From a virus, in IMG/VR virus record IMGVR_UViG_3300030328_000741, positions 1 to 28,287 of that record: a DNA stretch of 28,287 nucleotides; one strand, given 5' to 3'. Positions within the stretch are counted from its first letter, which is position 1. Every line of letters begins with the position of its first letter. The notes below the pieces were generated by a model that searched no databases, was not told the DNA's origin, and saw only the letters and a list, made by a program, of their open reading frames with translations. Of this stretch, positions 248-28,169 are shown in pieces. A program made the position numbers and the translations under genes.

Positions 248-1162
248 TTATGATTGTCTTACGATATCAGCTCCTACTCCTGTTTGAACACCTCCTGAGT
301 AACGAGCAACTAATCTCATATTGTCACTTCCATCAAGAGCAGCCATGTCCATCAAAGTAATTCTTGTAGCATCTGAAAGCAAATCAGTACCATAGAATAA
401 ATTAGATTTTTCTGCTGCTACTAATTGATTGTCAGCCATACCCGGACAAACTGCAATTTTGTATCCTTCGAATACAGGCTCATAGTCACCATTCATATTA
501 TAAGCATTAACATACCCTAAAGTAGATACTGCTGATACATATAAAGCGTAAGTTTTTGGACTCATATAAATATGCAAGTCTTCTTTTCTTAATACAGCAG
601 AAATGTTAGAAGCCATATCAGAAGTTAAAGTTTGTAAGTTTGCAATAATGTTACCTGCTACATATGCAGCTGAAGCTGATGATTGGATAACTGTTGCATC
701 AACTCCCGGTAATAAAAGACCTGTTGCTGCTCCTAAGAAACCATTGAATTTCCCTGCTACAGCAGTTCCTTCCCAAATTGATTCTTCAGTAGCTTGTGCT
801 ATAATTTCTCCCATATAAGAGATAACATAGTCATCAAAAGATGCAGGTGGTGGTGCTCCTGCTCCTGCTCTCATTTGTAATGCTTCCCAAGAATCTAGTA
901 ATGTAGATTTGCAAAGATCTAAGTTGATTTGTAAATTTTTAGGTTCTAATACTTTTTCAGTAAGTGCTAAAGTACCTGCGTCAGTAAAGTCACAAGTAGC
1001 ATCAGCAACTACTCCTGAACCTGCCATTCTTTGTATGTTAGACTTATACTTGATATTTTCAATCATAGTTAAGAAGTCTAATGATTTTGCTTCTTTTAAA
1101 GCAGCTGAGATGTAGAATCCTGCTGCCTTACCTGCAAAGTTTGATGTTGTAGTAAACGCCAT
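248..1162 (-). CDS. Major capsid protein
   Basis: A 304-residue protein starting at an ATG (1162). It has the look of the Bacteroidota-phage major capsid family: a short N-terminal arm (MAFTTTSNFAGKAAGFYISA), then a long mixed alpha/beta body with Ala- and Gly-rich stretches such as the segment around residues 99-107 (AGAGAPPPA) and the loop near 140-155. No signal peptide or membrane helix is seen. It directly follows a scaffold-like gene and an XkdF-type protease gene, the standard head-assembly order protease, scaffold, capsid. It would form the icosahedral shell, probably with the HK97 fold, although the fold is inferred from family and context rather than visible in the sequence. High confidence for the role, because size, composition and neighbours agree. 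Confidence 0.85.
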   Translation of the reverse strand: MAFTTTSNFAGKAAGFYISAALKEAKSLDFLTMIENIKYKSNIQRMAGSGVVADATCDFTDAGTLALTEKVLEPKNLQINLDLCKSTLLDSWEALQMRAGAGAPPPASFDDYVISYMGEIIAQATEESIWEGTAVAGKFNGFLGAATGLLLPGVDATVIQSSASAAYVAGNIIANLQTLTSDMASNISAVLRKEDLHIYMSPKTYALYVSAVSTLGYVNAYNMNGDYEPVFEGYKIAVCPGMADNQLVAAEKSNLFYGTDLLSDATRITLMDMAALDGSDNMRLVARYSGGVQTGVGADIVRQS

Positions 1163-1182
1163 TTTTTTTAATTATTTAATTA

Positions 1183-1884
1183 TTATTTATTTAAATTATA
1201 GATAAATCTTTCTTGTTTAGAAAGTCTATTGTATTCTTTTCTACTTAATGCAGGTCTGTCTGCACTAAATTTATTTGTGTTAATTGGAGCATCAGCAGGA
1301 CTTTCTGCTAGTTCCGTTTTCAGTTTTTCATTCTCAGCTTTTATTGCTTCAACTTCTTCTGCTGAAAATTCAACTACTTCTGTAGTCTTTATTGATTTTG
1401 GATTTGTAGAAGGCTCTTCAGTTTCTTCTGACATTTCTTCAACATTACCTGTTTCACCAATTTCTTTTTTAAGATCTGATACTGCATCTTCCAAGTTTTT
1501 GATTCTTTTTTCCATACCCTCCCAATCATCAACTGATGCTTCATCATCATCTTCACCTCTGTCTTCACCAAGTTCTTCTGACATTTCTTCTTTTACTTCT
1601 TCTGATGCTTCTTCTTTTTCTTCAGTTTCTGACTCAATAACTTCACCGACGATACCTTCTTCTTCAACTCTGAAAGAAACGCCTGTGTCAGTCTTGTATG
1701 TGCCTACAGGAAGTAGTATTGTCGTTCCATCTTCCGTTAATACTGAGATGTCCACCCCTGCTTCTAGCTCTTCAGCAGTAGATACAAAGATTGTACCATC
1801 TTCGCTTTTTGCTTGCCAAGCCAATTTAACTTCTTCGTCTTTATTCAGACCAAGAGCTACTAATATTTGTTCTTTTAAATCCAT
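1183..1884 (-). CDS. Scaffold-like head assembly protein
   Basis: A 233-residue protein with three visible parts. Residues 1-80 look like a small beta domain (KLAWQAKSEDG, VSVLTEDGTTILLPVGTYK-like pattern). Residues about 82-165 are extremely acidic, with runs of Glu, Asp and Ser, and include a heptad-like helix near 121-143. Residues 170-195 form another Glu/Lys helix, and the C-terminus (210-233) is basic (SRKEYNRLSKQERFIYNLNK). A charged, coiled-coil protein with a basic C-terminal helix just before the capsid gene fits a scaffold, whose C-terminus usually contacts capsid protein. It sits between protease and capsid with short gaps. The acidic repeats create long serine-rich frames on the other strand, which are not real genes. 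The role is inferred from composition and position. Confidence 0.65.
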   Translation of the reverse strand: MDLKEQILVALGLNKDEEVKLAWQAKSEDGTIFVSTAEELEAGVDISVLTEDGTTILLPVGTYKTDTGVSFRVEEEGIVGEVIESETEEKEEASEEVKEEMSEELGEDRGEDDDEASVDDWEGMEKRIKNLEDAVSDLKKEIGETGNVEEMSEETEEPSTNPKSIKTTEVVEFSAEEVEAIKAENEKLKTELAESPADAPINTNKFSADRPALSRKEYNRLSKQERFIYNLNK

Positions 1885-1916
1885 AGTGTTCTTTTTTTAT
1901 ATAATAGAAAATTTAG

Positions 1917-2636
1917 TTAATTATTTGATTTTGTAATTATTTCATTAAGAGCTTTTAGGATCTCTTCGTTAGTTGGTGCTTTTTCAGACATCTTTTCCAT
2001 CTTGTCTGTAAAGTAACCTTCAATGCTTAATCCTTTTAATGATCCATCTTTTATCTTTGACCATAAGTCGTCATTCTCAATTTTCATTTTAACAAACCAA
2101 GTTCCGTTTGGTAAATCAAAACCATACAATTTAGACTTATCCATATCACCTTCTTTTATCCAAGACTCAACAGTTAAAACACCTGATACTCTGTCTTGGT
2201 GTTCATAGGTAGCTTTGTGATGATTATTATGTTTCAAGTAAAGTTCTGAAGCCTTTCTAACAGTATCTTTTGAAAAGTACACATAATATTCTGAGTCAGT
2301 ATTTGCATCATATCTAAATATCTGCTTATTGGGAATAAGAGCAGGACTGACTACAACTCTTTTGTCCTCATCTACTTTAGCAAAAGTCAAGTTATTCTTA
2401 GACTTATTAAAATAAACAAAGTCTTGCTCAATAGCAGGTGCTGATACTAAAGAGATAGCGTCAATAGCAAGTTCTTGTGAATCGTTATCAATTACAAGTT
2501 CAACTATTGAAGTAGTTTTCATTTCTTCGTAATGGTGGTCAGGGTTTGCTTTTTGACAATCTTCTAAAGAGTCGTACTCACATTCTCCTGTTTCACCCCA
2601 TTTGTATTTTCCTTCTTTGCATTTTGTACAAGGCAT
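1917..2636 (-). CDS. XkdF-type (peptidase S78_2) prohead protease with N-terminal Cys module
   Basis: A 239-residue protein. Residues about 45-210 match what I recall of the XkdF/Peptidase_S78_2 family: ISLVSAPAIEQDF near 61-73, SGVLTVESWI at 151-160, YGFDLPNGTW at 171-180 and the Ser-containing KGLSIEGYF at 201-209. His146 and Ser204 are the likely catalytic pair by analogy with S78 prohead proteases; this is inference. The first 38 residues form a separate Cys-rich piece (C3, C6, C19, C27) that could bind a metal. A second ATG at residue 39 would give a protein without it. The enzyme would trim scaffold and capsid during maturation. Its position before scaffold and capsid genes agrees. Confidence 0.8.
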   Translation of the reverse strand: MPCTKCKEGKYKWGETGECEYDSLEDCQKANPDHHYEEMKTTSIVELVIDNDSQELAIDAISLVSAPAIEQDFVYFNKSKNNLTFAKVDEDKRVVVSPALIPNKQIFRYDANTDSEYYVYFSKDTVRKASELYLKHNNHHKATYEHQDRVSGVLTVESWIKEGDMDKSKLYGFDLPNGTWFVKMKIENDDLWSKIKDGSLKGLSIEGYFTDKMEKMSEKAPTNEEILKALNEIITKSNN

Positions 2637-11950: not shown

Positions 11951-11981
11951 AAGGGGGTTGTCTTTAAGGCACCCCCTTTTT
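11951..11981 (+). terminator. Strong hairpin with T5 tail on the plus strand
   Basis: AAGGGGGT (11951-11958) pairs perfectly with ACCCCCTT (11971-11978), with three further inner pairs and a short loop, and is followed on the plus strand by TTTTT (11977-11981). It sits in the 106-base gap between the large terminase stop and the tail chaperone start. In the minus-strand transcript the stem has an A5 run before it and only two U residues after it, so it would be a poor terminator in the direction of the genes, though it could protect or process the late mRNA. The T tail overlaps the terminase stop codon. Confidence 0.6.
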
Positions 11982-13290
11982 ATTGAACAAAATACTTTCC
12001 AAAGTTTCCATCAATTTCATAATACATTCTCATTGCTAAAGCATCTGAATAGTCAGGAGATCTACCTATTATGTCTTTGATAGTTTCTTTAGGAACTATT
12101 TGTAGTTTATTATCTTTGTCTGCGTCTTTCATTCTTACTTGCTCACACTCTTCAATAATATTATTTTTTACATTTATATCAGGACAACTTATTCCTATCT
12201 GAGCTTTGTTAATTAATTCAGCCAACTTATAATAACACTGAGTCTTTAGGTTCTGATAGTTTTCTTTTTTTAATGGTCTTGCATTATTAGTAAATCCTTG
12301 ACACCTGAGAAAATCTTTAGCCCCACCCCCAACTCCATCTTCATCTATAATAATATTGCGTAATGGTACACCGTTAGTCTGTTGTAATTGCCTTACTTCG
12401 TCTACAACGTCATTTACAGCCGATTTAAGCAACGTTCGTATCTTTTTAATATGTAACCCTTCCCAATACATAATAACTGTCTTATCAGCCCCAAAACGTG
12501 CTACATCACAACTTATGTATTTTTGTCCTTCTATTCCTTTTTGAGTAAACATATTGATTATAGCATCATATTCAATTAAATTATCTTTACTTGCATCATA
12601 TTCCCAATTCCCAAATAGTAACCTTTGTTTACTTAGTTCATCTAATGTTTCTAACTGAGTCTTGTAATACTTAGAAATAAATTCATTATCATCTACAAGG
12701 CTCTGAATAAACTTTCTATATGGTTTTTGTTTCCCTTCTTTTGATGGTCTGTAGTATTGAGTGTACACCCAATTCTTAGCAGGATTACAGGTCATTAGCA
12801 TCTTTGGAATTAATCCATAGTCATCTAACTTGTATCTCATTCTTGAAGCTACAATATTTTTTGCTTTCTCTGTTATCTGATTTGCTTCATCTATAAAAGC
12901 CCCTGTTATTTCCAATGAACCTAAGTTGTCAAAGTTCCTGTCACTTGGGTACAAGAATAAATCCTTTAACATTATTTCTGATTTATTATAAAACTTTATG
13001 ATGTTAGATCCTCCATTGAAATTATAATGTTTGTTAGCTTTCAAACCCCACGCTTCACATACTTCTAAGAAAGTATTGAGAGTTGTTTTTTTAAGACTAT
13101 CCAATTTTGACCTGCCCATTAAATACCTAGTCTTTGGATATTTTAATGACATAAGAATTAACCAACTACAACCCACCCAAGACTTTCCACCACCTGCTGC
13201 TCCACCAAATAATACTTCCGTAGTAGTTTTATCAAATAGATATTCTATTGCTTCTGCTTGAGTACTTGTAAATTCTGTATCAATATTCAA
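11980..13290 (-). CDS. terL: Terminase large subunit
   Basis: A 436-residue ATPase-nuclease that drives DNA packaging into the prohead. The N-terminal ATPase has a Walker A loop GGAAGGGKS (29-37), a Walker B AFIDEA (131-136) with catalytic Glu135 and a coupling motif MTCNPAKNW (166-174). The C-terminal RNase H-like nuclease has its acidic residues at D262 (SCDVARFGADKT), D316 (NIIIDEDGVGGG) and D416 (SPDYSDALAM). All key residues are present, and the length is usual for the family. It overlaps the small terminase gene by 11 bases. The gene downstream is the tail chaperone instead of the more usual portal. Identification is secure. Confidence 0.95.
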   Translation of the reverse strand: MNIDTEFTSTQAEAIEYLFDKTTTEVLFGGAAGGGKSWVGCSWLILMSLKYPKTRYLMGRSKLDSLKKTTLNTFLEVCEAWGLKANKHYNFNGGSNIIKFYNKSEIMLKDLFLYPSDRNFDNLGSLEITGAFIDEANQITEKAKNIVASRMRYKLDDYGLIPKMLMTCNPAKNWVYTQYYRPSKEGKQKPYRKFIQSLVDDNEFISKYYKTQLETLDELSKQRLLFGNWEYDASKDNLIEYDAIINMFTQKGIEGQKYISCDVARFGADKTVIMYWEGLHIKKIRTLLKSAVNDVVDEVRQLQQTNGVPLRNIIIDEDGVGGGAKDFLRCQGFTNNARPLKKENYQNLKTQCYYKLAELINKAQIGISCPDINVKNNIIEECEQVRMKDADKDNKLQIVPKETIKDIIGRSPDYSDALAMRMYYEIDGNFGKYFVQ

Positions 13291-13633
13291 CTCCCTTGAT
13301 ATTTACATTAATTTTTATAGGTTCATCACCTGAGCTAAGGTCAAGTTCTGATCTTTCTACATACCCTCGTCTTTTTCCTTTAGTCTTTAAAAAGAATATT
13401 GTAGCTGAAGTATTTCCATCTCCAATCTGTTTATGTAACTGACTTTCACCAAAGTCTAGTGCTATATTTTCTATGTCTTTTACAGCCTTAGCAAAGTCCT
13501 CGTCTTCTTTTAGCCATTTATAATATGTTGAACGTGGAACATCTGCTGCTTTACAGGCTACCGTTACCACCCCTAAACTATTCTCTAATGCTTTTAAAAT
13601 GCTTTCCTTTTTTATATGTCTACTTTTGTCCAT
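13280..13633 (-). CDS. terS: Terminase small subunit (HTH)
   Basis: A 117-residue protein with an N-terminal helix-turn-helix (ESILKALENSLGVVTVACKA, ADVPRSTYYKWLKEDEDFAK, residues about 9-45), then a helical oligomerisation segment (ENIALDFGESQLHKQIGDGN) and a short C-terminal tail that ends in the terminase large subunit gene. Such proteins recognise the packaging start on phage DNA and hand it to the large subunit. The TSATIFFLKTKGKRRGYVER part is typical of phage small terminases. It overlaps terL by 11 bases and the upstream glycosyltransferase gene by 14 bases, so the three are probably cotranslated. Confidence 0.85.
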   Translation of the reverse strand: MDKSRHIKKESILKALENSLGVVTVACKAADVPRSTYYKWLKEDEDFAKAVKDIENIALDFGESQLHKQIGDGNTSATIFFLKTKGKRRGYVERSELDLSSGDEPIKINVNIKGVEY

Positions 13634-14495
13634 TATTATATTTTAGTGTCATACCATAATTATTTACTTTATTTTTAACTTGATATGATTGTTTTTTAAT
13701 TAATTTCGTTTTTTTAAATGGTGTATAATCAACGTGGTGATGTATTCTACCAAATCTAAATGTAAGTCTTGATACGTCAGGGTGTATATCTACTTGCATT
13801 TGGCTCTTTGGCAAAGTCCCTTCTTTATCATAAAACTCTGCTGAGTTTCCACCTCTTAATACTTGTGTAGTGGTTTTTAGTTGCATAAAAGCATTAAATT
13901 GAATTGTACAATATCCTGCTTTTAACATATCTAAACTCAATATAGTATCTTCATTATAGCGTCCCCTCCATTTAAAAGGTACATCATTCTTAATTAAATT
14001 GCAGCTATATATTCTAGTATTTTTAACAAATGGTGGTACAGCTTGTTTACGTGGCACGAACATATAATAGTTTGGTCCTGCCATTGCTACATTCTCATAC
14101 CTTTCTACAAAATCTTCCATAGCTTTAAATCCTGCACCATTTCCCAAAGGTATTTGTAGATTGTTATTCATTCTCAAAAACCTATCTATGTTGTCATCCA
14201 TTACCCAATGATATTCAAATCCATTTTCCTTAGAATGCTCCCAAACAAAGTTTCTTGCTGCACCCGGTCCTGTACTTTTAGATCTTCCAAGTTTATCTAA
14301 AACTTCATATTCATCTAAATATTTTTCAGGCAATATTAATATCTTTTTTTTATCAATTACAGCTGAATAATCTTTGTAGTCACTTTTTTCTATGACAATA
14401 TTATAAGGCACATTCATCTTTTCTAATGCTTTACTTGTCAGCCTACTATCTGCTCTGCCTTTTGAAACTATATATAATGGATATTTGGGATTCAT
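13620..14495 (-). CDS. TAGT-like glycosyltransferase, candidate DNA base glycosyltransferase
   Basis: A 291-residue GT-A-type protein. The N-terminal YPLYIVSKGRADSRLTSKAL (5-24) and MNVPYNIVIEKSDY (27-40), the TGPGAARNFVWEHS segment (75-88), the metal-site-like DDN at 100-102 in HWVMDDNIDRF, the YNED at 180-183 and a His-rich IHHHVDY (251-257) match what I recall of the TET-associated glycosyltransferase (TAGT) class, found in phages and linked by Aravind and colleagues to modification of hydroxylated bases in DNA. It would transfer a sugar from a nucleotide-sugar to its acceptor in the cytoplasm. No TET/JBP-like dioxygenase gene is visible in this window, so the acceptor is open: a modified base made by an enzyme outside the window, or a protein. 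It overlaps terS by 14 bases. Confidence 0.75.
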   Translation of the reverse strand: MNPKYPLYIVSKGRADSRLTSKALEKMNVPYNIVIEKSDYKDYSAVIDKKKILILPEKYLDEYEVLDKLGRSKSTGPGAARNFVWEHSKENGFEYHWVMDDNIDRFLRMNNNLQIPLGNGAGFKAMEDFVERYENVAMAGPNYYMFVPRKQAVPPFVKNTRIYSCNLIKNDVPFKWRGRYNEDTILSLDMLKAGYCTIQFNAFMQLKTTTQVLRGGNSAEFYDKEGTLPKSQMQVDIHPDVSRLTFRFGRIHHHVDYTPFKKTKLIKKQSYQVKNKVNNYGMTLKYNNGQK

Positions 14496-14504
14496 CTAAT
14501 TTTT

Positions 14505-15455
14505 TTAATAGCTTTTATCATATAAAATTGATCTCCAATCTTTTCCAAATATATGCTCTGCTTCTTTAGCTAACAAACAATCATCTTTTAATGTTTCCCA
14601 AAAGTCACTATCTACACCTGAAGATTTATTAAAAGCACTTTCAAAAAAATGATGTACTATAAAAGATTTTTTAAAAATCTCATTAATATCAGGAAGAGTA
14701 TGACCAAACAATTCTGTTTTACCATCTAGCCTTGTAGGTGATTCTAATGAGTAACATTTGCCCTTTCCAAGCCAAGCAGGTAATGGGTGAAAATACAAAG
14801 GCTCATAAACTTTTGCATTTTTGTCGTGTATTATTAATTTTTTTACTGTCCAAATGACATAGTTCCAAGCCTTACTGTCTGTTTTAGGATCTTCCATTAA
14901 TGTTTTCATTATTTTATGTGATAATGAAGCAATATACTTTGATATATTTTTACTAACTTTTAATGGAAAATTAAACAATGCTTTTCCATCCCAACTTTTA
15001 TCATTAATATATAATGGTGGGTGAGCTTTTCCCCATTTAGGAGCAAAGCCGCCTGTTAGTTTTGAAGGCATAGAAGCAAACCAACCATCATCTTCAGGGG
15101 GCTTTCTAAGTATTACAGCATCCATATCTAAAACAACACCTAAGATCTCTGAAGCAACTTTAAGTCTTACTGCATCTGATATATGAGCTATGCTATGACC
15201 ATTAACTAAAGAGCTAAACGCTTGTTTCGATGGAAATATTTCATTTGCATTTTTTACTTTTATACCTTTAGGAATCTGACCTTTGTTAAATTCTTGATAA
15301 GAGTAAAGTGTAGTATCATTATTTAATTTAATATGAGATGCTAAACTTAAATGGTGGAATGGTGAGATATTTATTTTTCTACTTGACCATTTATTGTGAT
15401 CATTATCAATTCTCTTATCATAACTACTCCAAAATAAAATATATTTATTATTCAT
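14505..15455 (-). CDS. Second glycosyltransferase, GT32-like with DXD motif
   Basis: A 316-residue protein. The ATG at 15455 is chosen; a TTG four codons earlier is possible. It carries the GT32-type signature: SIAHISDAVRLKVASEILG (88-106) followed by VVLDMDAVILRKP (107-119), where D94 and the DMD triad (110-112) are the expected nucleotide-sugar and metal binding residues. The C-terminal half has YFHPLPAWLGKG and HHFFESAF segments, similar in style to the acceptor half of GT32/capsule-type transferases. No membrane helix is visible, so it should be cytoplasmic. It overlaps the ParB-like gene by 8 bases and precedes the TAGT-like gene by 9 bases. Two unrelated transferases in a row suggest a two-step sugar addition to one acceptor. 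The family call is sound; the substrate is unknown. Confidence 0.75.
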   Translation of the reverse strand: MNNKYILFWSSYDKRIDNDHNKWSSRKINISPFHHLSLASHIKLNNDTTLYSYQEFNKGQIPKGIKVKNANEIFPSKQAFSSLVNGHSIAHISDAVRLKVASEILGVVLDMDAVILRKPPEDDGWFASMPSKLTGGFAPKWGKAHPPLYINDKSWDGKALFNFPLKVSKNISKYIASLSHKIMKTLMEDPKTDSKAWNYVIWTVKKLIIHDKNAKVYEPLYFHPLPAWLGKGKCYSLESPTRLDGKTELFGHTLPDINEIFKKSFIVHHFFESAFNKSSGVDSDFWETLKDDCLLAKEAEHIFGKDWRSILYDKSY

Positions 15456-16035
15456 ATGTCTTATCAAATTGCTTTACATCTTTTACTTCAGGAAACCATA
15501 ATGATTTTGTTTTATCTGTTATTTGCTGATTTAATAATTTTGAAAAACTCTTAACATCATCTTCATTTTTAAAAGATACAATAAGTTGTCTTGTCGGCAT
15601 CTTATTCTCTTGATTAAATTCAGGCATATCAGTCCACTCTAATTCAGCATCTAGCTCATTTTTATCATCTTGATTTTCCCACACATCTAACCCCCATTCA
15701 GTTATCTTAATAGTATTCCATTCATTACCTAACATTGCCCAATCCCATTCTCCAAAACCTACATTATCTTTAACAATAAATTCTTTTTTTTGTTCCTCCG
15801 TAAGTCCTTCAGCTACTTCAATCCATATATCTTTAATTCCTGCTTGTTTGCTAGCTTTTAATCTCATATTACCACCTAGCACTACCATATCCTCATCTAC
15901 TACAATAGGTCTGAGTTTTAGCATTTCAGGAAACTCTTGTATTGATTTTACTAACTTTAAAAACTTATCGTTCTTAATAATTCGCGGATTACTTGGGTTG
16001 CTTTTTACTTTGTTTATTTTAACTTGTTTTTTCAT
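15448..16035 (-). CDS. ParB/sulfiredoxin-fold protein with C-terminal KSLWFP module
   Basis: A 195-residue protein. Residues 1-95 are a ParB-like N-terminal domain: VKSNPSNPRII (10-20), PIVVDEDMVVLGGNMRLKAS (43-62) with the GGNMRLKA box, then a helical segment (LTEEQKKEFIVKDNVGFGEW). This domain is used in phages as nuclease, NTP-binding or DNA-contact module. The C-terminal part (147-182, LIVSFKNEDDVKSFSKLLNQ, TKSLWFP) is a small alpha/beta domain that, as I recall, is often fused to such ParB domains in Bacteroidota phages. The gene begins the block of two glycosyltransferases. ParB-type proteins have been reported alongside phage DNA-modification genes, but a direct role here is inference. 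Confidence 0.75.
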   Translation of the reverse strand: MKKQVKINKVKSNPSNPRIIKNDKFLKLVKSIQEFPEMLKLRPIVVDEDMVVLGGNMRLKASKQAGIKDIWIEVAEGLTEEQKKEFIVKDNVGFGEWDWAMLGNEWNTIKITEWGLDVWENQDDKNELDAELEWTDMPEFNQENKMPTRQLIVSFKNEDDVKSFSKLLNQQITDKTKSLWFPEVKDVKQFDKTYE

Positions 16036-16062: not shown

Positions 16063-16311
16063 TTAATAGTCTTCATTTATTCCACGCTCACCACAAAGTT
16101 TTTCTTTTGCTCCATCCCATAGCATATCACGCCTTTTGCTAAGGCTAGGCTCTGTACGTTTAAGGTTAGGCATTCCATCTTCAGGCTCAGAGTCCATATA
16201 CTTACCACACCCACATTTAACATCAGTTACCCATTTACCATTAACAAAGATAATCTTAGCTTTTGATACTTCTTTTTCTTCTTTTCCACATTCGCAAGAA
16301 TATAAAGTCAT
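16063..16311 (-). CDS. Small zinc-ribbon-like protein
   Basis: An 82-residue protein with paired cysteines, CEC at residues 5-7 and CGCG near 33-36, the latter followed by KYMDSEPEDG. The arrangement resembles a short zinc ribbon of the FmdB type found in phage and bacterial small proteins. The C-terminal half is charged, with a helix (RRDMLWDGAKEKLCGERG). It overlaps the DUF3310 gene by the ATGA junction at 16308-16311, implying coupled translation. No function is known to me; a nucleic-acid or protein-binding role is possible. Confidence 0.6.
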   Translation of the reverse strand: MTLYSCECGKEEKEVSKAKIIFVNGKWVTDVKCGCGKYMDSEPEDGMPNLKRTEPSLSKRRDMLWDGAKEKLCGERGINEDY

Positions 16312-16568
16312 TGTGCTAAACTTCCTGTTTTAGTGTCGCTTTTCTTATATAGCTTGTCTAGCTCAAAGTGCAAATGGTTTATGGCTTTCTGTATATCTTG
16401 TTCAGCAGGGTTTCCTTCTTTTTTTCCTGCTCTCAATAGGTAGCTTACAGCCGTTCCTACATTGTAAGATAAGTTGAAGTCTTCAACTACTTTACGTGCT
16501 GAATATCCATACTTTTTTCCTGTATAGTAACTTGGTTCTGTTGTTTCTTTATAATTTATCGGCATCAT
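16308..16568 (-). CDS. DUF3310 family protein
   Basis: An 86-residue protein with two possible starts three bases apart (MM). The region 22-70 (YSARKVVEDFNLSYNVGTAV, SYLLRAGKK, DIQKAINHLHFEL) matches the DUF3310 family, short helical phage proteins with the conserved 'Y-LLRAGKK' centre. The family is frequently found in lytic phage early regions and has been labelled a nucleotide kinase-like or SaV protein, but its biochemistry is not established. It shares ATGA with the zinc-ribbon gene downstream and overlaps by 20 bases the end of a small membrane-peptide gene. Confidence 0.8.
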   Translation of the reverse strand: MMPINYKETTEPSYYTGKKYGYSARKVVEDFNLSYNVGTAVSYLLRAGKKEGNPAEQDIQKAINHLHFELDKLYKKSDTKTGSLAQ

Positions 16569-16886: not shown

Positions 16887-17288
16887 TTATTCATTGTATT
16901 TTTTGTACAGTTTTTTTATTCCATCAAAACAAGTTGAAAGACAAGAACCGCAATTCGTCCCTGTACCATAGTTAGTCATATATATTGTATTGTAAAGTTC
17001 AATCATTCTTTTTTTAGTAGCAACATTTTTAGCCCTTCCTGTTTTTAAGTCTTTCCAAATATCAAGGACTTCATCTATTAAGTGTTGTGGTAAATCATCA
17101 GGAGCTGTAACTTCTGTAGTTTTATCCCAATACTTCTGAGGACAAGCCATAGGAGCAAGACGTGCCTTCAATTTCATAAAACACAAACACCTTTTGCAGT
17201 TTCCTGTAGGTTTAAAATAATAAACACACTCCCTGCATATTGCAAGGCGTTCTTCATATATTTCATCAGGTACAAAAAACTTATTCAT
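16887..17288 (-). CDS. Cys-rich, zinc-binding-like protein
   Basis: A 133-residue protein with many cysteines in the first 50 residues (RLAICRECVYYFKPTGNCKR, CLCFMKLKARLAPMACPQKYW) arranged as CxxC...CxxCxC, a likely zinc ribbon, and a second Cys pair near the C-terminus (NCGSCLSTCFDG). The middle (about 60-100) is helical and charged. Small proteins with this 'ICRECxYF..TGxCKxCxCFM..K' form are, as I recall, common in Bacteroidota phages next to a sigma-like gene. It overlaps the sigma-like gene by 8 bases. The role may be DNA binding or transcription, by context only. Confidence 0.65.
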   Translation of the reverse strand: MNKFFVPDEIYEERLAICRECVYYFKPTGNCKRCLCFMKLKARLAPMACPQKYWDKTTEVTAPDDLPQHLIDEVLDIWKDLKTGRAKNVATKKRMIELYNTIYMTNYGTGTNCGSCLSTCFDGIKKLYKKYNE

Positions 17289-17826
17289 TTAGCTTCTTTT
17301 TTAATATATTGCGCACCTTATCTATTGTAGTAAAAAGACTGTTACGACTTATGTTAGTCTTTTCTGCTAGTGAGTCAAGTGTATTACCTTCATAATAATA
17401 CAGCTCAAAAACTTGTTTATCATACCAAGTGACTGACTCTAAGGCTTCATCAATTTCTTGTAACTTAGTCCATTGCCACTTATCTACTTTAACTTCAGGA
17501 ATATTGTAAATGCTTTTATGGTCACCCATAGTTGTATTGGTTTCATAATAGTCTTGTACAGTATTGTAATATTTGTCATACTTATAATAAAATGAGCTTC
17601 TTGTACTCGTTAGAGAACGTCTAAGAGCTACAGCTCCATACTTTGTTATTCCTTCTATTCCGTCATTATCATAAATTGATTTTAAAGTCTTAGGATTCAT
17701 TTGTAAAAAATACAACATTAGTTCCTGAACAGCATTATCAATTTGGTTCTTATCTGTTGTTAAACCAAAAGCCATAGTCCTAAACTTTTCTGAGAGCTTA
17801 GATATTTCTAAATATATATCATTCAT
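17281..17826 (-). CDS. Sigma-70-like transcription factor
   Basis: A 181-residue protein. Residues 134-178 (WYDKQVFELYYYEGNTLDSL, AEKTNISRNSLFTTIDKVRN) form a sigma region 4-type helix-turn-helix: the 'EG-T--SLAEKTNISR-SL--TI-KVR' pattern is that of extracytoplasmic-function sigma factors. Residues about 10-45 could serve as a degenerate region 2 (core binding), with a Lys/Tyr-rich linker between. It probably redirects host RNA polymerase to phage promoters, or it is a terminase-like HTH protein; I prefer the sigma reading. It overlaps both neighbours by 8 bases. The absence of a clear region 2 signature keeps the function uncertain. Confidence 0.65.
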   Translation of the reverse strand: MNDIYLEISKLSEKFRTMAFGLTTDKNQIDNAVQELMLYFLQMNPKTLKSIYDNDGIEGITKYGAVALRRSLTSTRSSFYYKYDKYYNTVQDYYETNTTMGDHKSIYNIPEVKVDKWQWTKLQEIDEALESVTWYDKQVFELYYYEGNTLDSLAEKTNISRNSLFTTIDKVRNILKKKLNE

Positions 17827-25444: not shown

Positions 25445-27484
25445 TTAATTGTAATATCCGTTATTTTCCATTCGTTGTGGTGCTATTGCCACTAGCTTAT
25501 CGTTTCGTTTTGCTGTAAATCCTTCAGAAACAGCCTTAGTGTAGCCTATTAGCTCAGCATCTTTAATAGGTTGCTTTGCATTTCTTAGTGAAGTCTTGTA
25601 GATTTTACGCAAGAAAAAATGTCTGCATTGAGGTCCACCTTTGTATAAAAATATGTTATATGGTTCACCTTCAGGATATTCTGAAGTTGGGTGTCCAAAT
25701 CCAAAATTAACTTTATTACTATCTACATTTACCAAGTCCTCTTTACGATATACTTTTTTAGCTGCTACCATTAATTCACAAAACTCTCTGCTTGTTCCTG
25801 ATTTATTTACTAAGAAATTATCTGTAGCATAAACATATCTTACTTTGTAATAATCACTATAAGATTTATTGACACCGTCCTGACTACTTCTTGCATTTGG
25901 TCTTGCTGTTACAGTTTCTGCTAGTTCAATTCTTTTATTAGCTTCTTTGTTTAGTTCCTTTTCAAAGTCAAAATCATTATGCTCACCATCTACAACTTCT
26001 TCTTCTATTAGTTCCCAATCATCAGACATATCTTCACCAACTTCACTTATCCATTTTTCAAGTTCTGTTTTATTGCAACATACTTTTTTAGATAGTTCTG
26101 TAGCTTCTGAATGGTCCTTACAAGCCATATAAGCCGTTTTGCCTTCATATTCGTGTTCGTGATACCCTTTACACCCTAAAGTCTTTGCGTGAGCTTCAGC
26201 GTCTTCTATTGTGCTAAAAACAGGCTGACCATCTATCATTCCCACTTTGCTAAGTTTTACATCTTGTTCAACAGTATCTTCATTATCTAAAGGTTCAAGC
26301 CCAAGTTCTTCTCTGATTTCGTCTGTAGTCATTACTTCTCTGATAGTCTTAGAATCAAATTGTACTGTAATAGGTTTAAGCTGTACAAAGTTTACAGGTA
26401 AATCCATATTGTTTACTTGAAATATCTTCCGAAGGCTTTTAACTAATTGATCTTGGAATGGTTTAATAACAGTATTTAAGTAGAAATTTGCCGCATTTAT
26501 GATCTCGTCTGTATTTGAAGAAAATCCGTTAGCAGAATCTATGCCCATAAGCGTCTTAGAGGTTACTCTGTGCCCACTTAAGATGTTTGAGGTTAGTAGC
26601 TCTTGGAGTGCTAAATATTGTTTATCTAAGTCGCTAGAATTGATTGGTGTAATTTCAGGAGTCCTTGTCTTATCGTCACTAAAAGTTAATACAAACTTGC
26701 CTGAATTATTTTCTGAGCAGAATTTTTCTGTTAAACTTTGTTCTATTTGGAATCGTTCTTCTTGAGTAGGAACGCCATTTGCAAAGCTAATCATAAAAGA
26801 TCCTGCAAATCCATTTGAGATATTATTTAAATGGAACTCAGATACACGACCATCAATAAGTGCCCAATTATTACAACTCACGTAATCAGGTGTAAAGTAT
26901 GAGTTCATATTAGGGCTATAAAGACCTGAATACATTATTTGATTTGCAGAAGTTCTATCATTAACATTAAAAGCAGGAACATAATAAGGTTTGTTCTGTC
27001 TAGTGTTTGACCAATCTGCTGAGATATAATACCCTTTAGTCTTGCCAAATTCATCAGGTCTTGCACATCTTAGCTTAGAAACATCAATGTGGTAGATTTC
27101 AGCGATTTGAGTTCTGTCCTTTGACCATACTATGTTAAGTGCAAATGCTCCTTGTAATTTAAAGTCAAAAGAAAGTTTCTTAATAACTTCGTGTAGGCTT
27201 TCATTTCCATTAGCCCTATTCATAAAGTTTTGTAGCTTAATACTTGCTTCTGTAACCTCTTCGTCTTCTATAATAAGAGCTTCACCTGCTATCATTTCAG
27301 ATGTAGAATTAATAATGGCAGCAGATATGCTACTTGAATAATAAAGATCTATCAAAAACTGTGGATACAGGTTTTTCCATTCACCATTAGCATCTCCGTA
27401 CTCAATCCAATCTTTTCCACGCACCTCTGTAATTACAGGAGCTGTACTCGTTTCTAAATTTATATTAATGATATTGTCTTTCAT
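25445..27484 (-). CDS. Portal protein with C-terminal extension
   Basis: A 679-residue protein. Residues 1-400 form the portal body: WIEYGDANGEWKNLYPQFLI (26-45), FKLQGAFALNIVWSKDRTQI (108-127) and LLTSNILSGHRVTSKTLMGI (297-316) lead into an acidic helical crown (DEIREELGLEPLD, 388-400). It forms the 12-subunit ring through which DNA enters. Beyond residue 410 is an unusual extension: a Cys/His-rich piece (about 425-470, with C438, H442, H444, C455, H458, C469 and C470), an acidic linker, and a C-terminal domain (545-630, REFCELMVAAKKVYRKEDLV, GGPQCRHFFLRKIY) like the end of Mu gpF-type minor head proteins. This suggests a fusion of portal and minor head functions. Confidence 0.8.
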   Translation of the reverse strand: MKDNIININLETSTAPVITEVRGKDWIEYGDANGEWKNLYPQFLIDLYYSSSISAAIINSTSEMIAGEALIIEDEEVTEASIKLQNFMNRANGNESLHEVIKKLSFDFKLQGAFALNIVWSKDRTQIAEIYHIDVSKLRCARPDEFGKTKGYYISADWSNTRQNKPYYVPAFNVNDRTSANQIMYSGLYSPNMNSYFTPDYVSCNNWALIDGRVSEFHLNNISNGFAGSFMISFANGVPTQEERFQIEQSLTEKFCSENNSGKFVLTFSDDKTRTPEITPINSSDLDKQYLALQELLTSNILSGHRVTSKTLMGIDSANGFSSNTDEIINAANFYLNTVIKPFQDQLVKSLRKIFQVNNMDLPVNFVQLKPITVQFDSKTIREVMTTDEIREELGLEPLDNEDTVEQDVKLSKVGMIDGQPVFSTIEDAEAHAKTLGCKGYHEHEYEGKTAYMACKDHSEATELSKKVCCNKTELEKWISEVGEDMSDDWELIEEEVVDGEHNDFDFEKELNKEANKRIELAETVTARPNARSSQDGVNKSYSDYYKVRYVYATDNFLVNKSGTSREFCELMVAAKKVYRKEDLVNVDSNKVNFGFGHPTSEYPEGEPYNIFLYKGGPQCRHFFLRKIYKTSLRNAKQPIKDAELIGYTKAVSEGFTAKRNDKLVAIAPQRMENNGYYN

Positions 27485-27494
27485 ATTTTATTTT

Positions 27495-28169
27495 TTATAA
27501 AGCTTGAAGTCTTGCGTTTACATTATCTAACATTGTGGCTGAAGGTGCATCATTATATATTTGTATCTCTGTTATTGTACCATCATAAGGGTTTAAATCC
27601 ACCCTTCTTACACCAATAGTGTCAATATCAGCAGTTCCTGCTAATGTTCCACTTGATGACTGTGATACCCCATTAGCAAACCATTGTATTAAATTTGGGT
27701 CTTTTCTATAAATTAATATTGAACCATCAGTCCAAGTTCCACTATCTAACGTCAAGTCTAAATTTGTTGCATCTATCTTAATTCTTATTGTATTATTAGA
27801 AGTAAGCTTGAAAAATTCTCCTGTTGAAGTATTATCACCTAATATTACACCTGTAAAAGCTGAAGGATTAAACCTTATGCCAATAGCAAAATTACCTGTT
27901 AAACTTATTTGTCCTGAGGTTTGTAAGTTTTGAGTATTAGTAGGGTCAAAAGTAACTATCCCATTTGCATAGGCAGGTTGTTCTGAAGCTGTAGCTTGTA
28001 CCATGTCAAGACCATTAGAACTTGAGTCACCCCACGAACTAACATCAGAACCATTTAATGTTATCTCAGAGCCTTTACGATACCACGCAACTAGACTTGA
28101 TTCATCAGTAGGCAACCAATAAGGATTCCTTGAAGAACTAAGGCTTTTTCCTAATTTAAGAGCTAACAT
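27495..28169 (-). CDS. Lectin-like (concanavalin-type) virion protein
   Basis: A 224-residue protein rich in Ser, Thr, Asn and Asp. LVAWYRKGSEITLNGSDVSS, WGDSSSNGLDMVQAT and GIVTFDPTNTQNLQ at the start, followed by repeated strands such as SILIYRKDPNLIQWFANGVS and ITEIQIYNDAP, fit a concanavalin/LamG-like beta sandwich. This fold is common in phage head-decoration or tail-fibre proteins that bind sugars. No signal peptide is seen. It is followed, 10 bases on, by the portal gene. The structural role is likely; whether head or tail is unclear. Confidence 0.6.
   Translation of the reverse strand: MLALKLGKSLSSSRNPYWLPTDESSLVAWYRKGSEITLNGSDVSSWGDSSSNGLDMVQATASEQPAYANGIVTFDPTNTQNLQTSGQISLTGNFAIGIRFNPSAFTGVILGDNTSTGEFFKLTSNNTIRIKIDATNLDLTLDSGTWTDGSILIYRKDPNLIQWFANGVSQSSSGTLAGTADIDTIGVRRVDLNPYDGTITEIQIYNDAPSATMLDNVNARLQAL

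Follow-up and report, generated by a model that had tools for sequence, protein, structure and literature searches.

The virus record IMGVR_UViG_3300030328_000741 of IMG/VR is a linear sequence of 28,287 bp that carries no stated completeness and represents a fragment; it was analysed over its whole length and is referred to below as the window. All recognised genes of the record are located on the minus strand and encode, in the order of transcription, NinG, a sigma-region-4-like protein, small DUF6171 and DUF3310-like proteins, a ParB-like protein, a GT32-like glycosyltransferase, a TET-associated glycosyltransferase (TAGT), the small and large terminase subunits (TerS and TerL) and head-tail proteins. 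The subject of this study is the cassette formed by the ParB-like, GT32-like and TAGT genes. As stated in the original prediction, made from the sequence alone, the three genes overlap or nearly abut immediately before the terminase genes: ParB and GT32 share 20 bp, a gap of 9 bp separates GT32 from TAGT, and TAGT overlaps TerS by 14 bp (Table 1).

Table 1. Features of the window, with positions counted from its first nucleotide
Feature	Positions	Strand	Remarks
TAGT-family glycosyltransferase	13620..14495	-	291 aa; PF20691, phrog_842
DDN of the TAGT, acidic pair, presumed metal/nucleotide-sugar site	14190..14198	-	D100 and D101 invariant in 18/18 sequences, including phage T6
ED pair of the TAGT, presumed catalytic base region	13947..13952	-	E182 and D183 invariant in 18/18 sequences, including phage T6
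ParB/sulfiredoxin-fold protein with enzyme-specific C-terminal tail	15448..16035	-	195 aa; profiles, tail swaps
ParB N-domain (~aa 1-118)	15682..16035	-	42-98% identity across 64 loci and 14 slot classes
MPEF domain (~aa 133-195), partner of this TAGT group	15451..15639	-	elsewhere a stand-alone gene or N-terminal TAGT fusion
GT32-like glycosyltransferase	14505..15467	-	320 aa; TTG start, in-frame alternative ATG at 15455
DMD (DXD) motif of the GT32-like protein	15120..15128	-	D114, M115 and D116 invariant in 12/12 sequences
TerS, downstream border of the swap slot	13280..13633	-	Sf6_terminase 3.4e-4 (below cut-off), phrog_309 1.5e-9
TerL, query for sister phages	11980..13290	-	phrog_2 7.6e-35
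Genes for an 82-aa and a DUF3310-like protein, conserved border on the upstream side of the slot	16063..16568	-	in 40/42 scorable sisters, within three genes upstream of ParB (either or both)

The assignment of the 291-residue protein to the TAGT family was borne out by a profile search with PF20691 (E = 8.4e-45; 153.7 bits against a curated cut-off of 27.5), and the protein also matched phrog_842 of the PHROGs (E = 2.3e-50). Most of its matches in phage records (22 of 25) were 48-56% identical to it over 90-97% of the length; the hosts of the matching phages include Aeromonas, Vibrio, Shewanella, Pectobacterium and Tenacibaculum. A structure model of a natural fusion of MPEF and TAGT, from locus L055, was obtained with a predicted local distance difference test (pLDDT) score of 86.5 and a predicted TM-score (pTM) of 0.84. 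Its best matches among glycosyltransferases were 9u7i (E = 2.6e-5), heparosan synthase 2 (5.9e-5) and GnT-I (1.7e-4 to 3.5e-4), and the TM-scores calculated on the model were low throughout, 0.33-0.37 (0.33 for 9u7i); a TAGT profile retrieved two weak matches from the PDB sequences. The TAGT of phage T6 has been modelled as GT-A in the available part of PMC13216743.

The ParB/sulfiredoxin fold of the first protein was upheld by a profile of its relatives, which matched solved ParB structures with E = 9.6e-14 and sulfiredoxin with 3e-4, and the protein matched the PHROG nuclease/ParB families with 5.7e-26 and 1.3e-22. The single window protein reached 22.5 bits with Pfam ParB_N, below the cut-off of 26.3, and 17.1 bits with the partition-ParB model TIGR00180, for which the cut-off is 58.45; its C-terminus is occupied by the MPEF domain.

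The recognition of a GT32-like transferase stands in part. The window protein remained below the 23-bit cut-off of PF04488 (E = 0.006, 17.7 bits), and of five homologues tested against this model one, that of L100 (60% identical), exceeded it with 26.9 bits; the S-D-x-V-R and DMD motifs on which the recognition was based are invariant in all 12 aligned sequences, one of which reads SDLVR. The structure model (pLDDT 70.7) is weaker than that of the MPEF-TAGT fusion. Foldseek returned nothing below E = 0.001 for it (best E 0.02), and a fold comparison placed YeGT first (Z 10.0, 187 residues, 3.8 Å), followed by SetA and glycogenin (Z 9-10). No entry named GT32 or Och1 occurred among the 50 matches listed by VIA, searches of phage records with GT32 gave no match, and a GT32 profile found no PDB sequence at E ≤ 1.

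A direct scan for GT32 yielded 11 viral loci, with TAGT visible in 10 of them. When sister phages (see below) were added, 16 distinct GT32 contigs were obtained (L002-L005, L007, L008, L013, L099-L104, L111, L134 and L148), of which 15 have TAGT in the same cassette; the sixteenth, L103, ends directly after GT32 and has ParB before it. A two-sugar group, as originally envisaged, is therefore possible. The genes are found in the orders ParB-GT32-TAGT, ParB-TAGT-GT32 and GT32-ParB-TAGT, and the TAGTs beside GT32 may be as little as 24-38% identical to that of the window. GT32 was seen in 7 of the 80 loci of the TAGT scan, and L009-L011, the TAGTs of which are 85-89% identical to that of the window, have no GT32 between ParB and TAGT. 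An NAD-dependent epimerase gene follows TAGT in the GT32-containing loci L101 and L104 (Pfam on L101); L123 and L182 combine TAGT and epimerase without GT32. GT32 thus appears to be an optional accessory, and because of its rarity in the TAGT scan and its absence between ParB and TAGT in the close relatives L009-L011 the TAGT probably acts first or alone in the cassette. Comparison with close relatives indicated purifying selection on all three proteins, with ratios of nonsynonymous to synonymous substitution (dN/dS, NG86) of 0.05-0.10 for TAGT (5/5 loci), 0.17-0.18 for GT32 (3/3) and 0.03-0.14 for ParB (5/5), these being rough in several comparisons in which dS exceeds 1 (L009, L011 and ParB in L008).

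The MPEF domain and its pairing with TAGT

The MPEF domain comprises ~60 residues at the C-terminus of the ParB-like protein and has the consensus 'W..MPEF...F....D...F..L..Q..T.KTKS.W.P'. No family of Pfam or NCBIfam matched it above cut-off; one of six proteins gave a weak partial match to the PHROGs (4.8e-4, 22 residues), the others none below E 0.001. In the TAGT scan, which covered the best 80 of 123 viral relatives with flanks of up to 10 kb, TAGT is typically either preceded by a gene for a ParB protein or an open reading frame (ORF) of 71-109 aa, or itself 364-495 aa long. In BLAST comparisons, the similarity of these small ORFs, and of the N-terminal extensions in long TAGTs, to the window ParB was confined to its final ~60 residues and did not include its N-domain. 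The ParB protein, regarded in the original prediction as the companion of the TAGT, was therefore rejected in this role, the conserved partner being the small C-terminal domain.

A profile was built from 39 stand-alone ORFs of one cluster and the window tail, the matches of which to it are therefore built in; the fusions and the majority of the ParB tails had no part in it. All 71 testable viral TAGT loci encode MPEF (8 of the 80 lie at contig ends and one has no scorable match), 67 as an ORF, 10 of these fused, and four by six-frame reading. Among 27 genomic loci, three of which lack a scorable TAGT match and one of which lies at a contig end, the domain was found by ORF in 20 of the 23 testable cases and by six-frame reading in the other three (one weak, 8e-5). 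Seven of eight named phages with TAGT have MPEF, the exception being Lactobacillus phage jlb1, a member of a sister clade. IMG/VR contains at least 586 confirmed stretches that encode MPEF; the reciprocal scan took the best 80 of these and so leans to closer relatives, part of them being contigs of the TAGT scan; TAGT follows MPEF on the same strand in 79 of 79 testable cases, within 68 bp in 78 of them and after a gap of 1,096 bp in one (L246 ends after MPEF and is untestable). MPEF, rather than the ParB domain, is the near-obligate partner of the TAGT.

The tail of ParB differs according to the enzyme that it accompanies. MPEF occurs with the TAGT group of the window, and the jlb1-type TAGT is accompanied by a tail bearing a Y-x-H motif ('YAHS'); one further distinct tail is found with TET, another with Mom and others with the slot proteins S4 or S17 (see below). 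Over 64 loci the correspondence of tail and enzyme was 17/17 against 0/47, although labels were partly taken from the tail and some of the loci share a contig. An independent check is provided by an enzyme-only tree of TAGTs (60 rows), in which the MPEF- and YAHS-types form one clade of 44 rows (support 99/97) separate from the TET-paired TAGTs. The 12 YAHS-labelled rows constitute a single clade (100/100) and are not mixed with MPEF-labelled ones; four rows labelled 'other' that fall among the MPEF-labelled ones represent loci at contig ends and L013, in which ParB is fused to GT32. T6, L176, L115 and L177 have long branches in this tree. In L100, a ParB N-domain 82% identical to that of the window carries a YAHS tail and is accompanied by a jlb1-type TAGT. 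Comparison of these loci thus shows that the ParB tail co-varies with the slot enzyme, the N-domain being common to many slot contents. Through this co-variation, an adaptor model becomes testable for the so far unexplained occurrence of ParB domains next to DNA-modifying enzymes of phages.

The MPEF-TAGT module is not confined to the vicinity of terminase genes. It lies between portal and head-morphogenesis genes in 1.076.O, beside helicase-like genes in 1.124.O and beside clamp-loader genes in henriette; proximity to the terminase is therefore uninformative on timing, and the earlier suggestion that modification takes place just before packaging loses its basis. Modules are also present in bacterial genome assemblies of several phyla (L183-L209, with Erwinia, Pantoea, Chryseobacterium, Xenophilus, Rhodovulum and Acidobacteriaceae among the titles), where they probably lie in prophages. 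Tandem TAGT pairs were observed in Vibrio phage Kuja (L088:7557-10269) and in the locus L189 of a Verrucomicrobiaceae metagenome-assembled genome (MAG). In two Vibrio phages (L084, L085) MPEF-TAGT is followed, within three genes, by a dUTPase gene; one of the two has an N6-adenine methylase gene in between.

No published account of the MPEF domain, its pairing with TAGT or the swap slot described below was found in the open-licence literature, and these are, as far as found, new. The TAGT family, the TET-less TAGTs of T-even phages, solitary TAGTs as an open class and ParB beside methylases or CmoX are already known. No paper combining ParB, glycosyltransferase and phage DNA hypermodification was found in the open-licence literature. 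Solitary TAGT homologues, without alpha- or beta-glucosyltransferase (GT), are reported from 288 of 753 phage genomes as potentially novel transferases in the available part of PMC13216743; through MPEF, a sequence signature and a minimal two-part enzyme become available for at least some of these.

The slot upstream of the terminase genes

Sister phages were retrieved with TerL as a query, and the best 80 of 191, 82-97% identical, were compared. The gene next after TerL is conserved in 75 of 76 of them, and the region between TerS and the small genes upstream of ParB (Table 1) forms a slot that is visible in 71; the other nine have nothing upstream of TerS or no TerS. Families were determined by Pfam on one representative per class, the other members being assigned by BLAST clustering. 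All 71 visible slots belong to nucleic-acid-modification or sugar-transfer classes, six of them (S4) by sub-threshold match and one as an epimerase at a contig end. The most frequent content is TAGT without TET (24 slots: seven with GT32, two with epimerase and 15 with neither, four of the 24 being contig-end loci or having an unclassed tail), followed by TAGT with TET (19). The remainder hold S4, which matches glycosyltransferases below threshold (6), TET either by itself or at the end of a contig (5), a P-loop protein with TET (3), PAPS reductase with a ParB-like protein (3), a FolE/radical-SAM/QueD/QueC set (3), the GT4-like S17 (2), Mom (2), and one each of ABC-ATPase-GNAT, DAM-like-GNAT with a ParB-like gene, ParB fused to an N6/N4 methylase (L133) and the contig-end epimerase. 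Pfam E-values for the representatives were 4.3e-10 for Tet_JBP, 8.8e-65 for FolE, 3.9e-28 for PTPS/QueD, 1.2e-12 for QueC, 1.1e-34 for Mom, 4e-22 for the ParB-fused N6_N4_Mtase, 1.5e-34 for the DAM-like protein, 1.5e-23 for PAPS_reduct and 5.6e-34 for Epimerase.

Phages that are nearly identical to the window in their terminase may differ in the slot: L109 (TerL 97%) contains TET, and L110 (TerL 96%, TerS 94%) a different TAGT. Such close relatives with different slot contents amount to natural swap experiments. The arrangement ParB-X-TerS-TerL recurs in unrelated phages, where X is TAGT (Lactobacillus jlb1), Mom (Psychrobacter Y8A) or ABC-GNAT (Pasteurella Pmp13, where a small ORF in reverse orientation precedes TerS). 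The cassette of the window is best explained as one of the interchangeable contents of a DNA-modification slot that precedes the terminase in a marine phage lineage, probably a flavobacterial one.

Several slot contents deserve mention in their own right. QueC, QueD, radical-SAM (QueE-like) and FolE genes for 7-deazaguanine synthesis replace the ParB/TAGT cassette in L136 (3759-5671; Pfam on this locus), L139 and L143. A PAPS-reductase-like gene followed by a ParB-like gene fills the slot of L124 (425-2279; Pfam on this locus), L131 and L181, a pair which we take to resemble IbrA/IbrB. In L132, L159 and L164 a P-loop protein of 154-160 aa precedes TET in a slot without glycosyltransferase and is a candidate kinase for an oxidised base. 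Two more glycosyltransferase-like families, each accompanied by a distinct ParB tail, occur as the only slot content (L135:2474-3409, six loci; L169:4282-5625, two loci); no TET was found in the two records searched for these families. In Psychrobacter phage Y8A, a Mom-family gene annotated as hypothetical lies between ParB and TerS (L093:4051-4704), and the authors of that genome, in the part of PMC10434257 available, list another MOM gene at 39,393-40,157.

TET and the probable target of the cassette

No TET/JBP gene was found in the record, in agreement with the original prediction: the Pfam search with Tet_JBP was empty (its in-search control was silent; the model gave signals in positive sisters). 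The same was true of thymidylate synthase and C5-methylase (controls positive) and of the T4 alpha-GT (control silent) in this fragment. The supposition that the usual TET partner is merely missing or encoded elsewhere is not supported for this group of TAGTs. Tet_JBP was found in none of the 80 viral contigs of the TAGT scan (0/42 and 0/38), none of the eight named phages and none of 49 further contigs of the MPEF scan. Among 38 sister records, it was detected in all six with TET in the slot (five above cut-off), in none of 24 with TAGT but without TET and in none of eight with other contents; the genomes of the 27 genomic loci yielded one case, L201. These counts rest on Pfam PF12851, since a profile built from the sisters misses the TET of L201; the controls were silent within the searches of the 42 contigs and eight phages, the record and the 49 contigs, and gave signals in those of the sisters, the 38 contigs and the genomes. 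Many contigs being fragments, the absence of TET is strong only in sum. TAGTs of this group as a rule have no TET, L201 being the one exception. TAGTs without TET are also known from T-even phages, where addition of a second glucose is attributed to the PF20691 enzyme (available parts of PMC13216743 and PMC13390438).

We consider it likely that the genes constitute a TET-independent DNA-glycosylation cassette in which TAGT acts first and the optional GT32 extends its product. The marine phage would thus probably coat its own DNA with sugar without a recognised enzyme making the attachment point. DNA is the likeliest target, because the slots of the relatives contain largely DNA chemistry; of the earlier idea that the phage decorates its DNA or a protein, it is the DNA part, and not its timing, that gains backing here. 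In the mechanism proposed, TAGT, with MPEF as its partner subunit, would use a nucleotide sugar as donor to glycosylate phage DNA, the ParB N-domain would serve as a shared NTP- or DNA-binding adaptor linking the slot enzyme to DNA, GT32 might add to the first sugar, and the product could shield the DNA from host nucleases. NTP binding by the ParB fold and its fusion to DNA methylases in phages, reported in the accessible part of a survey (PMC12704722), would fit such an adaptor. The observation of the original prediction is, in all, confirmed and its interpretation partly supported.

The nearest characterised system is the beta-glucosyl-HMC-alpha-glucosyltransferase of T2 and T6, which belongs to the same Pfam family (T6 TAGT against PF20691: 3.7e-9) and has the same DD and ED pairs. 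In T6 the TAGT gene lies beside a 246-aa gene annotated as thymidylate synthase, in a genome with alpha-glucosyltransferase, whereas the window has no match to either and MPEF instead. We take the 246-aa gene to be dCMP hydroxymethylase gp42. The window also resembles the TET-TAGT modules of phages, reportedly described by Iyer et al. 2013, in having TAGT in a phage DNA-modification locus, and 19 sister slots hold TAGT with TET; it differs from them in the lack of TET, in its TAGT clade and in having MPEF instead of the TET-associated tail. Genes of the phage Mu Mom type fill the same ParB-X-TerS slot (L116 by Pfam, L130 by clustering, Psychrobacter Y8A) but differ in family and chemistry. ParB domains have been noted in phages beside DNA methylases (PMC12704722) and beside CmoX (PMC12783734), and L133 of the present lineage likewise has ParB fused to a DNA-modifying enzyme; the window ParB accompanies glycosyltransferases instead, a word with no match in the available texts of these two papers.

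Several points weigh against a TET-independent DNA glycosylation. The T6 TAGT is only distantly related, with no meaningful pairwise BLAST match. To our knowledge, known DNA glycosylation uses a hydroxyl, and no maker of oxidised or hydroxylated bases was recognisable in the record, which may lack genes. Six of the 71 slots hold the S4 protein, the glycosyltransferase match of which is below the Pfam cut-off, and in some others (7-deazaguanine, PAPS reductase, DAM-GNAT, ABC-GNAT) this ParB is missing or a different ParB-like gene is present. Finally, in the Winogradskyella MAG contig L201 (533-3409) a fused MPEF-TAGT is convergent with two genes, one for another PF20691 protein (5.3e-14) that resembles the TET-paired TAGTs (2.2e-30), the other for a Tet_JBP protein (8.9e-24); a masked ParB-like ORF lies behind the two convergent module types. 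The TET of L201 is accompanied by its own TAGT, but the MPEF-TAGT could act after this TET, in two steps as in T6.

L201 bears also on the alternative that survives best, namely that the TAGT sugars a modified base, or the sugar on it, supplied by an unrecognised phage or host enzyme, so that the chemistry is that of ordinary glycosylated 5-hydroxymethylcytosine (hmC) or 5-hydroxymethyluracil (hmU). The pairing of TAGT with TET in 19 of 71 sister slots and the fragmentary state of the record speak for it. Against it, the clade of MPEF- and YAHS-type TAGTs is separate from the TET-paired ones, in a tree with long branches, and TET is lacking in the viral TAGT and MPEF contigs, the TET-less sisters and all but one of the genomic loci. 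A thymidylate-synthase fold was encoded in none of 42 IMG/VR contigs and in five of the eight named phages. As a rule, Asn marks thymidylate synthase and Asp gp42 (dCMP hydroxymethylase): the sole gene of this fold in phiAS5, henriette, Kuja and POP12 has Asn, as has the main gene of PTm1, which possesses an additional gene with the gp42-like Asp. The genes were accordingly rejected as makers of hmC, apart from the second one of PTm1, which favours a modified base. We regard this alternative as possible, without favouring it.

A different and more tentative proposal, which we think rather unlikely to hold, is that MPEF-TAGT glycosylates without prior base oxidation, using an unmodified base or a handle made by MPEF itself, with ParB-MPEF as an exchangeable targeting subunit. 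If true, MPEF-TAGT would be a phage DNA glycosylation class apart from those based on hmC, hmU and hydroxy-C.

Both glycosyltransferases might instead modify a protein, such as a capsid, tail, terminase or host defence protein. The absence of a recognised base hydroxylase from the record, the position next to packaging genes in this phage and the resemblance of the GT32-like model to glycogenin, SetA and YeGT, some of which act on proteins, would be in keeping with this. DNA-base chemistry in the sister slots speaks for a different target, and conservation of TAGT across phages of diverse hosts is better suited to a universal acceptor than to a virion protein. The PF20691 enzyme of T6 is moreover reported to act on DNA (available part of PMC13216743), and we consider a protein target improbable.

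An order as in T6, with GT32 adding the first sugar and TAGT the second, is quite improbable in our judgement: the T6 TAGT is described as adding a second glucose to alpha-glucosylated cytosine (PMC13216743, part available), but GT32 is too rare at TAGT loci, and lacking between ParB and TAGT in L009-L011, so that the sugar order here is probably opposite, TAGT coming first. A chance neighbourhood of unrelated late genes, to which the varying gene orders might point, is practically negligible in view of the complete MPEF-TAGT pairing at the testable loci of both scans, the fusions and the three arrangements of the module.

Neighbouring genes and the record as a whole

The nearest cultured relatives of the window TerL are those of Flavobacterium phage 11b (54.6%) and Cellulophaga phage phi10:1 (50.2%), and the host is therefore likely to be flavobacterial. 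No ParB is annotated beside the terminase in the four cultured TerL relatives examined (11b, phi10:1, Bacteroides phage Versailles and Polaribacter phage P12002L). Protease-like and probable capsid genes lie at the opposite end of the record from the portal gene (window 248-2636 and 25445-28169). The record may thus represent almost all of a circularly permuted genome; when the first 400 start positions were compared in a simple scan with the last third of the record, no direct repeat of at least 15 bases appeared. Upstream of the slot, the window encodes a DUF6171 protein and a sigma-region-4-like protein (16887-17826), the former of which recurs in many sisters.

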